Shown: piece by piece, positions 22,529 to 27,106 of the stretch
How positions within the stretch are numbered: position 1 is the first letter of the stretch
Layout of the letters: each line of letters opens with the position of its first letter
Source: an uncultured Treponema sp.
GTDB lineage: Bacteria; Spirochaetota; Spirochaetia; Treponematales; Treponemataceae
Length of the DNA stretch: 37,679 nucleotides
NCBI GenBank assembly: GCA_947167345.1
Contig: CAMVHR010000028.1
Coordinates: 1 to 37,679 of the forward strand
Direction: 5' to 3'
The notes under the pieces: generated by a model
Seen by the model: only the letters and a program-made list of their open reading frames with translations
Database searches by the model: none
What the model was told of the DNA's origin: nothing
Made by a program: the position numbers and the translations under genes

Positions 22529-23053
22529 GTGTTTGAGAATTGTGAAATTTTAAATAACCAAGCAATAGAATTAGCCTCTCACGGAGAATACGAAGAAGCA
22601 ATTGCCTGTTTCAAGAGAGCCATTACAATGGAAAAGGACAATTATCTTCTGTGGTATAATCTTGGCATAACTTACAGGGATGCAGGTGATTTGGAAGCCG
22701 CAACGGCAGCCCTTCAAAAGGCATATTTAATAAAACCTGAAGACGAGTCTCTTTTGGAATCCCTTACAACAATATATTATACAATTGAAAATTTTCCAGA
22801 GGCTTTCAGATATGCATCTGAAGCACTTTCAATAAATCCTGATAACTACAGGGTATGGAACACGCTCGGAGTCTTATATTTTAATCAGTCGGACTTTGAA
22901 ACAGCTTGTGAGGCTTTTGAACAGGCAGTGGCTCGCAATCCATACTATTATGACGCCCTATACAATCTGAGGGATTGTTATGAGGAGCTTGGTAACGAAA
23001 CAGGTGCAGATGAGTGTGAAAAGCGAATGAAGGAAATTCCCTTCCATGATTAA
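22529..23053 (+). CDS. Tetratricopeptide repeat protein
   Basis: The 174-residue protein is almost entirely TPR helices: about four to five 34-residue repeats, clear at residues 8-41, 42-75, 76-109 and 110-143. Each has the W/Y-NLG-Y/F...A...A pattern. There is no signal peptide or membrane segment, so it is a cytoplasmic scaffold or adaptor. The start is GTG with AAAGGGG upstream. The stop is 2 bases before the RseC-like gene, implying coupling, but no shared function is known. The binding partner cannot be read from sequence. Confidence 0.8.
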   Translation: MFENCEILNNQAIELASHGEYEEAIACFKRAITMEKDNYLLWYNLGITYRDAGDLEAATAALQKAYLIKPEDESLLESLTTIYYTIENFPEAFRYASEALSINPDNYRVWNTLGVLYFNQSDFETACEAFEQAVARNPYYYDALYNLRDCYEELGNETGADECEKRMKEIPFHD

Positions 23054-23055
23054 GT

Positions 23056-23475
23056 ATGTATAGAAGAGTAATGATAGTTTCGGTGCAAGACGATAATTCG
23101 GTATCAGTCCTGCCAGTAATAAGCAATGAATGCGCAAAGTGTGCCAGCGGATGTTCCAAACAAGGTTCTCCTTTTACGGCAAAAAATCCTCATAATTTTT
23201 CAGTCCGAACAGGCAGTATCGTAGCCATTTCCTCGCCTAAAAGCAAACAGGCGCTGGAAGGCTTACTTTCTCTAGTAGTGCCATTTTTGTGTGCAGTAGC
23301 AGGCTATTTTGTAGCCGTACCACTTGTTTCAATGATGGGCTTTTCAGCAGGAGACGGAGCAAGAGCAGCAGGCGTTCTACTTTTGCTTACACTATCATCA
23401 GCACTGGTTCTATTCATCAACAGAAAGATTCCTGAGTTTTCAAAACCAGAAATCATTGAAATCTTACAGCCTTAA
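23056..23475 (+). CDS. SoxR-reducing system RseC/MucC-like protein
   Basis: The 139-residue protein has an N-terminal cysteine cluster C26-x2-C29-x3-C33 in CAKCASGCSK, then two membrane segments (about 70-94 and 98-121). This layout matches the RseC/MucC family. In other bacteria members associate with Rnf-type or SoxR-reducing electron transfer or with sigma-E control. No such partner is beside it here. The cysteines could bind an iron-sulphur cluster or act as redox thiols. It starts 2 bases after the TPR gene. Family call is reasonable, function unproven. Confidence 0.7.
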   Translation: MYRRVMIVSVQDDNSVSVLPVISNECAKCASGCSKQGSPFTAKNPHNFSVRTGSIVAISSPKSKQALEGLLSLVVPFLCAVAGYFVAVPLVSMMGFSAGDGARAAGVLLLLTLSSALVLFINRKIPEFSKPEIIEILQP

Positions 23476-23526: not shown

Positions 23527-25140
23527 ATGAGTAAATATATCCTTGTTACCAGCGGAGTTTGCTCCAGTTTAGGAAAAGGTGTTGCAGCAAGCACTATCGG
23601 AAGCCTTCTTGAATGCAGCGGACTTAAGATTGCAATGTTAAAATGCGATCCATACATAAATGTGGATGCCGGAAATATCAGTCCGTACCAGCATGGTGAA
23701 GTTTATGTTACCGAAGATGGTGCAGAAACAGATCTTGACTTGGGAAATTTCAGCAGGTTTACCAGCATAAAACTCTCTAACGAAAACTGCATTTCCATTG
23801 GAAAGGTATACGAAAACGTCATAAGAAACGAACGTGCAGGAAGATACAACGGAAGAACAGTACAAGTTATTCCGCACATTACAGATGAAATAAAAAGATG
23901 CATACGGCATTTAGGAGATACAACAAAGGCCGATGTTGTCATTGTTGAAATCGGTGGTACCGTAGGCGATATTGAGGCAGTTCCGTATCTGGAAGCAATC
24001 CGACAGTTAATCCGAGAAGTCGGTAAAAATAATGCAATCAGCGTACACTTGACTCTTATTCCCGTAATTACTGGTGGAGAGCTTAAGTCTAAACCAACAC
24101 AGCATTCTGTGAAGCAACTACAGGAGGTTGGAGTTCAACCTGACATTTTGCTTTGCCGTTGTGAAGCACCTGTTGAAGAGTCAATGAAAAAGAAGATTGC
24201 CATGTTTTGCAATGTTTCCGAAGGAGCTGTATTCATTTCTCCTGATGTAAAGAAATCTATTTATGAACTTCCTATTATTTTCCATGAACAGCAGCTGGAC
24301 AAAAAAATTAACGAAAAGCTTTCTTTAGGAAATCGTACGGCGGACATCCGTCAATGGACAAATTTTATTGACAAGCTAAACAATCCTTCAAAAAGTGTCT
24401 GCATTGGAATGGTTGGTAAAAAGGATTATCTAGACAACTGTTATAAATCAGTGCAGGAATCTCTGTTCCATGCTGCAGTTACTGGTAATAATGCCGCAGT
24501 TACAATAAAAAAGATTGATGCAGAAACACTTGAAGATACAAAAGATTTTAATGAATGCTTCAAAAACCTTGACGGAATTGTAATTCCTGGCAATTATGGA
24601 CAAAGAGGGTTTCTAGGACTTCTTTCTACGGTAAAATATGCGCGTGAGCACAAAATTCCATTTTTAGGCATTGACTTAGGAATGCAGCTCATGGCTATAG
24701 ATACTGCCCGATATCTGTGCAATTGGGAAGACGCAGATACAACAGAGTTCATGCAGAATTCAAAGCATCCTGTTATCAGTTTACCGGAGGAACAGTCAGC
24801 ACCATCCGCTGGTGTAATGAAACTTGGAGCAAGTGAAGTTACGATTATGGAAAAAACAAAATTATATTCCATATATAATTCAACTTCTGCAATTGAACGC
24901 CACCGGTCAAAATATACATTTGACCGCAGATATACAAAGGACATGACTTCGCATGGTCTTATTACATCCGCACTTGCAGCTGATGACAATCAGGTTGAGG
25001 CTTTTGAATGGAGAGAGCATCCATGGGGCATAGGAGTTCAATATCATCCTGAATTTTTAAGCAGACCAACAAAGCCTCACCCTCTTTTTGATTCTTTCAT
25101 TCAGGCATCAATTGCATATCATGCGGAGCATTTGTTTTAG
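23527..25140 (+). CDS. pyrG: CTP synthase with altered glutaminase active site
   Basis: The 537-residue enzyme makes CTP from UTP and ATP. Its synthase domain (1-265) looks intact: P-loop SSLGKG (13-18), Mg ligands D71 and E141 in TDLDLG and VEIGGTVGDIE, and KPTQHSVK. The class I glutaminase domain (about 290-535) is not normal. The catalytic Cys of the usual GICLGMQ motif is D383 (GIDLGMQ, codon GAC at 24673-24675). The oxyanion-hole region PGGFG reads PGNYG (354-358). H507 and E509 (QYHPEF) and the RHR motif (458-460) are kept. It is therefore probably ammonia-dependent or needs a separate glutaminase. The reading frame is otherwise clean, so this is not a decayed gene. Confidence 0.93.
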   Translation: MSKYILVTSGVCSSLGKGVAASTIGSLLECSGLKIAMLKCDPYINVDAGNISPYQHGEVYVTEDGAETDLDLGNFSRFTSIKLSNENCISIGKVYENVIRNERAGRYNGRTVQVIPHITDEIKRCIRHLGDTTKADVVIVEIGGTVGDIEAVPYLEAIRQLIREVGKNNAISVHLTLIPVITGGELKSKPTQHSVKQLQEVGVQPDILLCRCEAPVEESMKKKIAMFCNVSEGAVFISPDVKKSIYELPIIFHEQQLDKKINEKLSLGNRTADIRQWTNFIDKLNNPSKSVCIGMVGKKDYLDNCYKSVQESLFHAAVTGNNAAVTIKKIDAETLEDTKDFNECFKNLDGIVIPGNYGQRGFLGLLSTVKYAREHKIPFLGIDLGMQLMAIDTARYLCNWEDADTTEFMQNSKHPVISLPEEQSAPSAGVMKLGASEVTIMEKTKLYSIYNSTSAIERHRSKYTFDRRYTKDMTSHGLITSALAADDNQVEAFEWREHPWGIGVQYHPEFLSRPTKPHPLFDSFIQASIAYHAEHLF

Positions 25141-25167: not shown

Positions 25168-25728
25168 ATGATTAAAATCTGGCTTATATGTAAAACTCTA
25201 TGTTTCTTACTAAGTTTTTCAATGCTTGCATCATGCTCTTTAAACTATGAGGTTACTAAAAAAGAAATTCATAATAACAGTCCTGAACTTTTGTTTCAAA
25301 CAGCCATCTTTAACCGCTATGAGAACAATAAGATAACTGTTTCTGTTTCTGCAGAAAAAATAGAGCAGTATACGTCTAATACATCTTATGCAAAGCAAGC
25401 TTATTTTGATTTCTGGAATGACAGGAATGAAAGAGAACTTACAGGTTCTTGCAGGCTTTTAGGAATGCAAACGTATAAAAATTTATTTACGCTCTATGAT
25501 GACATTCAGATAACCGATATTAAAAATAAATCGGAAATACAGGCATCTGCTTTAAAATGGAATTCAGAGAAAAAATCACTTGTATCTGATAAATCAAAAA
25601 TAGTACGGCTTTCTAAAAAGAGCATGGAAATTGAAGGAACCTGCTTTTCTGCAGACGGAGAAACTAATTCATTTGAATTTACGGCTGGTGTTACAGGGAC
25701 TATTCACCTGGAAGACAAGGTAGAATGA
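25168..25728 (+). CDS. lptC: LptC-like periplasmic lipid-export lipoprotein
   Basis: The 186-residue protein has a signal segment ending in lipobox LASC (C23) and a beta-rich domain resembling LptC. The call rests on weak similarity and on position directly before lptA and lptB. LptC links the inner-membrane LptBFG complex to the LptA bridge. Canonical LptC is membrane-anchored; here anchoring would be by lipid. The 3' end overlaps lptA by 4 bases (ATGA). lptF and lptG are not in the window. Confidence 0.72.
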   Translation: MIKIWLICKTLCFLLSFSMLASCSLNYEVTKKEIHNNSPELLFQTAIFNRYENNKITVSVSAEKIEQYTSNTSYAKQAYFDFWNDRNERELTGSCRLLGMQTYKNLFTLYDDIQITDIKNKSEIQASALKWNSEKKSLVSDKSKIVRLSKKSMEIEGTCFSADGETNSFEFTAGVTGTIHLEDKVE

Positions 25729-26354
25729 CTATGAAAAAACTTTTTTCCATTCTTGCAGCCTTATTTATTTTTAATTTCTCATGTTTTGCAGAGAACATCA
25801 TATTTAAGGCAGATCAGATGACCGGAAAGTCGTCAGATAGCAAGGATTATGCAAAATTAACGGGCAATGCAAGCATCATTACTAGCTCAATGGAGATTTA
25901 TGCTGACGAAATAGAGCTTTCTGGAGAAAATTATCGTTTCATAGAGGCTTCCGGTAATGTTTCCGGTTCAAATGTAAAAAATAAAATTGATTTTACATGC
26001 GGACAACTTTTATATGACAGAGAGACAGAAGTTGCTACGTTACAGAATGCCGTTCATTTAATTGACAGGGAAAATGAAACAATCGCAAATGCGGAAATAA
26101 TGGATTATGACCAGAACAAATCGACTATAATCATGCAAATTTCAGTCGCAATGCAACAGAAAGATAATATTTGTACAGGTTCACATGCTATTTACAAAAC
26201 TGACGCAAGGACATTGTTCTTAAGTGGTAATCCTCAAATTTCAAAAGGAAAAGATGTTTTTAGAGCACAGGAAATAGAGCTTAACCTCGATACACAAGAC
26301 ATCATTCTTGACGGACGTGTTCGAGGCTCTGTCGAAGATACAAAAAACAGATAA
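25725..26354 (+). CDS. lptA: LptA/OstA-like periplasmic lipid-transport protein
   Basis: The 209-residue protein has a signal peptide cleaved probably after CFA (residue 22) and a repeated beta-strand domain of the OstA/LptA type: IIFKADQMTGKS near the start, then GNASI, ASGNVSG and LDGRVRG strands. LptA oligomers form a bridge carrying lipid across the periplasm. It overlaps lptC by ATGA. A second in-frame ATG at 25731 could also be the start. Presence of lptC, lptA and lptB together argues for active outer-membrane lipid export. Confidence 0.8.
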   Translation: MTMKKLFSILAALFIFNFSCFAENIIFKADQMTGKSSDSKDYAKLTGNASIITSSMEIYADEIELSGENYRFIEASGNVSGSNVKNKIDFTCGQLLYDRETEVATLQNAVHLIDRENETIANAEIMDYDQNKSTIIMQISVAMQQKDNICTGSHAIYKTDARTLFLSGNPQISKGKDVFRAQEIELNLDTQDIILDGRVRGSVEDTKNR

Positions 26355-26374
26355 TAGACAATGAAAGAGTATAT

Positions 26375-27106
26375 ATGGAAGAGCATAAATTACAGGTAAG
26401 TTCACTTTACAAGTCATTTGGTAATAAAAAAGTTGTTCAGGGAATCGACTTTTCCATGACAACAGGAGAAGTTTTAGGATTGCTTGGACCAAATGGCTCC
26501 GGCAAGACAACAACGTTTTACATGATTGTCGGGTTTTACAAACCAACGGATGGCAATGTATTCCTTGATGATGAATTGATTACAAAGTTGCCCATGTATA
26601 AAAGAGCCAGATTGGGCATTTCATACTTACCACAGGAACCTTCTGTATTTAGAAAACTGACAGTTGAAGAAAATATATGGTCAATTCTTGAAACAAGACA
26701 AGACTTAACTGATAAAGAAAAAAAAGCTCAGCTTGAAGAACTTATAGAAGAATTTTCCATTCAAAAAATAAGAAAGCAACAGGCATATACTTTGTCAGGC
26801 GGTGAAAGACGTAGGACAGAAATTGCACGCTCTCTTGCAATTCAACCAAAGTTTCTGCTTCTCGATGAACCTTTTGCAGGAATAGACCCCATCGCTGTCG
26901 CTGATATAAAGAAGCTCATTAAATTGCTTTCAAAAAAGGGAATCGGTATCCTCATAACAGATCACAATGTACGGGATACCCTTGAAATAACAGATAGATC
27001 CATCATCATTTCCTCAGGACAAATTGTTATCCAGGGAAACAGACAAGAAATACTTAATTCAGAAATTGCACGTGAAATATATTTAGGTACAGATTTTACA
27101 ATGTAA
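26375..27106 (+). CDS. lptB: Lipid-export ABC ATPase LptB
   Basis: The 243-residue ATPase has Walker A GPNGSGKT (38-45), the Q-loop segment YLPQEPSVFRKLTVEENI (near 84-101) that is distinctive of LptB, signature LSGGERRR (140-147) and Walker B LLLDEP (161-166) followed by FAGIDP. Length is as in the family. It powers extraction of lipid from the inner membrane with LptF/LptG, encoded elsewhere. It is the last plus-strand gene and converges with the ribosomal operon. A hairpin (27126-27152) lies between, but its U-run serves only the opposite strand. Confidence 0.93.
   Translation: MEEHKLQVSSLYKSFGNKKVVQGIDFSMTTGEVLGLLGPNGSGKTTTFYMIVGFYKPTDGNVFLDDELITKLPMYKRARLGISYLPQEPSVFRKLTVEENIWSILETRQDLTDKEKKAQLEELIEEFSIQKIRKQQAYTLSGGERRRTEIARSLAIQPKFLLLDEPFAGIDPIAVADIKKLIKLLSKKGIGILITDHNVRDTLEITDRSIIISSGQIVIQGNRQEILNSEIAREIYLGTDFTM

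Follow-up and report, generated by a model that had tools for sequence, protein, structure and literature searches.

The pyrG gene of the window (the whole stretch of DNA analysed, a contig of 37,679 nucleotides from an uncultured Treponema sp.) probably encodes a GTP-independent, ammonia-dependent CTP synthase, which would operate alongside a canonical enzyme, as judged from its sequence. The earlier note had concluded that this enzyme could not use glutamine by the normal route, and such a loss is now strongly supported, since at least 81 genomes share it, the GTP site was lost in a coordinated way and dN/dS is low. In the following, V denotes the window-type pyrG, which has lost the Cys nucleophile, and C denotes the canonical Cys-type pyrG.

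Residues lost and kept in the window enzyme

The features of the gene and its neighbours are listed in Table 1. The product of the intact frame scored 658.7 bits against the TIGR00337 model (cut-off 462.75), and AlphaFold2 gave a confident full fold (pLDDT 86.3, pTM 0.87), whose best PDB matches were all CTP synthases (TM 0.92-0.94). The synthase plus GAT architecture and fold of PyrG and all the listed residues of the ATP/UTP/Mg2+ site were present. In contrast, the features of the glutamine-hydrolysing class, after which TIGR00337 is named, were lost: Cys of the Cys-His-Glu triad was changed to Asp with His and Glu kept, the GTP motif GG(TS)(ML)RLG and the contacts M52, L109, F353 and R470 were replaced, and the nucleophilic Cys at the elbow of class I glutamine amidotransferases was missing. 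When the sequence was reread, GIDLGMQ, PGNYG, the open frame and the retained H507 (CAT) and E509 (GAA) were all found as first described, with GAC at 24673-24675 coding for Asp383 (E. coli C379) and AAT TAT at 24592-24597 coding for Asn356-Tyr357 (E. coli G352-F353).

Table 1. Features of the V-type pyrG and its neighbours in the window
Feature	Position	Strand	Basis
V-type pyrG, glutaminase-dead CTP synthase paralogue (predicted), 537 aa	23527..25140	+	ORF, family score, alignment, AlphaFold2 model
Synthase (amidoligase) domain	23527..24324	+	alignment
Asn50-Ile51, equivalents of E. coli T51-M52; GTP-contacting L2 loop, start of NH3 tunnel	23674..23679	+	alignment; role PMC9138612, PMC8325340
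Asn108, equivalent of E. coli L109 (73/73 V); L4 loop over GTP/NH3 entry	23848..23850	+	alignment; role PMC9138612
PGNYG replacing PGGFG; oxyanion hole/lid L11; G352N, F353Y	24586..24600	+	alignment
GIDLGMQ replacing GICLGMQ	24667..24687	+	sequence, alignment
AGVMKLG, degenerate form of GTP-activation motif GG(T/S)(M/L)RLG	24808..24828	+	alignment; role PMC9138612
RSKYT, degenerate form of RHRYE; R470K 73/73, H469S/N, E472T	24904..24918	+	alignment
His507 and Glu509, remnants of old triad, 73/73 V	25045..25053	+	alignment
lptC-lptA-lptB, markers of ancestral spirochaete pyrG locus	25168..27106	+	synteny
TPR protein and RseC/MucC-like protein, upstream of V; directly adjoin lptC in several V-less relatives	22529..23475	+	synteny

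For the comparison of residues, 73 full V sequences were aligned with 42 canonical enzymes, and E. coli numbers are used below unless stated otherwise. The columns of Cys379 and Gly352, whose alignment had been proposed as a check, were both changed throughout V, with Asp (71/73) or Asn (2/73) at the nucleophile and G352N/S in 73/73. Among the sites invariant in the 42 canonical enzymes, 12/69 in the GAT domain were switched in V and only 3/97 in the synthase domain. The GAT replacements at functional residues were C379D, G352N/S, F353Y/M, R470K, H469S/N, E472T/S, G436 and R440K/Q, together with T438V/L/I in most V sequences; R470K and R440K/Q, like L109N and M52I of the synthase domain, were found in all 73. 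L109, M52, F353, R470, T438 and R440 have been assigned to GTP binding or GTP-dependent activation by reviews and cryo-EM, and G352 sits at the oxyanion hole (PMC9138612, PMC8325340).

The claim that the whole synthase domain was kept held for every ATP/UTP ligand checked, but G10S, T51N, M52I and L109N were replaced in the window protein. K18, K40, D72, E140, D147, E149, R158 and F227 were present in 73/73 V sequences and K187 in 72/73 plus one unread residue, all of which we take to be ATP/UTP/Mg and CTP-feedback residues. The tunnel residues P54 and V60 were unchanged, while the gate His57 was kept in 65/73 and was Gln or Tyr in the other 8/73. The old glutaminase pocket still held E403, Q383, H515 and E517, with His515, Glu517 and Glu403 in 73/73. 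Asp at the nucleophile was not an absolute requirement, since two V sequences had Asn there, and either Gly or Asn was seen in other genera related to Treponema.

Median pairwise dN/dS of V was 0.058 (synthase 0.036, GAT 0.080), compared with 0.049 for C (synthase 0.024, GAT 0.059), so purifying selection acts on both domains of V (omega about 0.06). The GAT to synthase divergence ratio was 1.46 in V and 1.51 in canonical relatives of the order. A relaxed or decaying GAT domain was ruled out by these values, which resemble those of canonical enzymes. Reading frames were open in nearly all 81 V orthologues. Two V copies (L049 of G199 and L080 of G111) carried one in-frame stop apiece, which could be assembly errors or recent pseudogenes.

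A second pyrG, distribution of V and its ancestry

The search for a second pyrG suggested in the earlier note was successful: a family search found a canonical gene with GICLGMQ and PGGFG on another contig of the same assembly (L001; contig C23 of G000), the product of which was 46% identical to the window copy. The window gene is therefore not the sole CTP synthase of this genome. The canonical gene adjoins a GuaA-type GMP synthase gene, possibly in a nucleotide-synthesis operon. A genome-wide loss of GATase cysteines was also ruled out, as the four other GATases examined (TrpG/PabA, CarA and GuaA types and the second PyrG) retained Cys. Glutamine synthetase was present in the genome.

V was found in at least 81 of 200 Treponema genomes with 65-100% identity to the window copy (65-95% for orthologues from other assemblies, which had Asp or Asn in the proportions given above). 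C accompanied it in 76/81 V-bearing genomes (43-48% identity), and the five V genomes without C were all MAGs of 65-92% completeness. Named carriers included T. parvum, T. socranskii, T. saccharophilum and T. zioleckii. A link of the lost glutaminase with an ammonia-rich gut, as first proposed, was thus too narrow, for the cultured oral-type T. socranskii and T. parvum also carry V. In related genera of the family V and C occurred together, the nucleophile being Asp, Asn or, once, Gly. One of these genera (g23; L378 and L380) had a V-type PyrG with D72 changed to Asn and G351 to Asp; D72 is presumably a Mg2+ ligand, so synthase catalysis may be lost there. Five genomes of the same genus as the window genome (G065, G069, G096, G034 and G007; 94-99% complete) had the lptCAB locus and no CTP synthase domain (PF06418), and are possible CTP/cytidine auxotrophs.

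About 85,000 species were scanned with [F/L]GID[L/F]GMQ, which gave 110 matches: 76 were V of Treponema/Spirochaetaceae, one was an unusual Clostridia CTP synthase and the remainder had no PyrG similarity. The survey patterns match only within GI-x-[L/F]GMQ, so that other motifs escape them. The Clostridia protein (L209 2377-3981, from a roe deer cecum MAG) was the only PF06418 protein found in its genome and was CTP synthase-like, with GIDFGMQ, PSGWG, K40R, D72N and F227R. It was set aside as a counterpart of V because its synthase site was altered too (K40R, D72N). A GINLGMQ match in G729 lay outside pyrG and was due to chance. A survey of 398 genomes of Bacillota, the phylum to which this Clostridia bacterium belongs, revealed three more CTP synthases lacking the nucleophile, all with Ser instead (L387, L393 and L394; G674, G711 and G941), and two of the three genomes also held a Cys-type copy. 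It would therefore appear that CTP synthases lose the nucleophile seldom, but more than once.

Canonical pyrG preceded lptA or lptC/lptA, followed by lptB where the stretch reached so far, in all but one of the 19 loci that came from other families of the order (18 of 19); in the exception the contig stopped soon after pyrG. V occupied the same position in pyrG-lptC-lptA-lptB. In the tree V was sister to canonical spirochaete PyrG (SH-aLRT 100) and C was placed among enzymes of other phyla. Synteny and tree together indicate that V is the vertically inherited, ancestral spirochaete copy, and acquisition is the most likely origin of C. Several V-less relatives had the TPR-RseC-lptCAB order intact with pyrG absent. 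In a tree of C copies the V carriers and the V-less genomes fell into two separate groups, with the exception of one fragmented V-less MAG (84% complete); its genomes were picked from both kinds, so that it shows a clean separation and gives no exact count of losses. The probable course of events is that a second PyrG was gained, after which the old copy became specialised for ammonia in one lineage of the Treponemataceae and was lost from a sister lineage.

Ammonia as the probable nitrogen source and other explanations

Of the three options raised at first (free ammonia, a separate glutaminase, or a domain that has become regulatory), free ammonia appears to fit best. Among the parts kept were the ATP/UTP site, the residues of CTP feedback and the gate of the tunnel, whereas the nucleophile, oxyanion loop and GTP residues were replaced together. 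The concentration of switches in the GAT domain under purifying selection, the presence of C alongside, the ancestral status of V and the separation of carriers from V-less genomes on the C tree point the same way, as do the published NH3 chemistry of E. coli and the independent Cys-to-Ser losses of Bacillota. E. coli CTPS accepts external NH3, and GTP both activates its glutaminase and occludes NH3 entry (PMC9138612, PMC8325340). The G352P variant had no Gln activity and was almost fully active with NH4Cl (PMC9138612), and variants of L109, T438 and R440 lost Gln/GTP function with NH3 activity largely kept (PMC9138612, PMC8325340). In V, free NH3 would enter via the former glutaminase/GTP cleft, which GTP would no longer plug, then run through the old tunnel and aminate 4-phospho-UTP to give CTP, with no need of GTP. 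The canonical PyrG would provide glutamine- and GTP-dependent CTP.

Some observations count against an ammonia-only enzyme. The intact E. coli enzyme also uses NH3, so freedom from GTP and glutamine would be the only clear gain of V; the retention of E403, Q383, H515 and E517 is not required by pure loss; and D72 is Asn in g23, with the gate His57 changed in a few V sequences. The retained residues could tentatively be ascribed a function, in that Asp383 with His507, Glu509 and Glu407 (window numbers) might form a site that captures and deprotonates ammonium for the tunnel, or one that senses a ligand, which we consider rather doubtful. The Asn and Gly variants disfavour a strict need for Asp in such a pocket. 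If it existed, V would be an ammonium-scavenging, GTP-blind enzyme, and the CTP supply would be decoupled from glutamine and purine status.

The same retention (His515/Glu517/Glu403), the purifying selection on the GAT domain, the near-constant company of canonical PyrG and the loss of D72 in g23 would also suit a regulatory partner, which forms mixed tetramers or filaments with canonical PyrG and uses its dead GAT domain as a sensor or scaffold. This is nevertheless unlikely: a pure regulator would not need the whole ATP/UTP site to be invariant, the paralogues are just 46% identical, and C bears no visible sign of depending on V, being the only copy that V-less relatives use. The non-random, clade-specific and fixed changes on the tunnel and GTP side (M52I, L109N, and T51N in the window protein) hint that V could be an amidoligase that takes its nitrogen elsewhere (from a separate glutaminase or as another amine) or acts on a different nucleotide such as dUTP. 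This appears quite improbable because the UTP-contacting residues are unchanged and the adjoining genes (TPR, RseC and lptCAB) include none for a glutaminase. Decay of a redundant ancestral pyrG after the arrival of the second gene would agree with the presence of that gene and with a sister clade that has lost V from the locus; dN/dS of 0.06, frames open in nearly all orthologues, the invariant synthase site and the uniform set of replacements make it very hard to believe. A sequencing or assembly artefact might be suspected because the window belongs to a draft assembly of 129 contigs, of which it is one, but the chance of this is negligible, as dozens of assemblies made independently, among them those of T. 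parvum and T. socranskii, show the same replacement. Sequencing error and isolated mutation were ruled out by this recurrence, and the earlier view of a selected loss is borne out by the Asp/Asn conserved across these assemblies and the low dN/dS.

Meaning and comparison with known systems

CTP synthase is regarded as an enzyme under the control of glutamine and GTP. Searches of the open-access PMC literature found no account of a natural CTP synthase with a dead glutaminase, nor of pyrG paralogues in Treponema. Since the window protein scores far above the TIGR00337 cut-off, databases and automatic annotation will misname it "glutamine hydrolyzing CTP synthase". A long-conserved natural lineage without glutaminase or GTP site provides a ready experiment on the non-hydrolysis roles of GTP and the GAT domain. 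The gain of a second gene would let the old enzyme split nitrogen sources, and the recurrence in Bacillota suggests that this may be a repeatable evolutionary route.

Compared with canonical PyrG (TIGR00337, EC 6.3.4.2; E. coli 1S1M, T. thermophilus 1VCO), V has the same fold, domain order, ATP/UTP and CTP residues and tunnel gate, but is without the Cys nucleophile and has its oxyanion loop and GTP-activation residues replaced. The Ser-type enzymes of Bacillota share the lost nucleophile and, in two of the three genomes, the Cys-type companion; unlike V they have largely kept the GTP motif, and they represent independent events. E. coli G352P and DON-inactivated CTPS do not use glutamine and keep NH4Cl-dependent CTP synthesis (PMC9138612, PMC11211670), as V is predicted to do from its sequence, but these enzymes are artificial, whereas V is natural and fixed and has lost the GTP site too. 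The closest analogue of V in its presumed mode of action would be vertebrate CPS1 (PMC4655335), which retains an inactive class I GAT with its Cys replaced (Ser294 in human) and is fed by free ammonia, as V may be by analogy, although CPS1 is another synthetase with another replacing residue and an essential activator, N-acetylglutamate.
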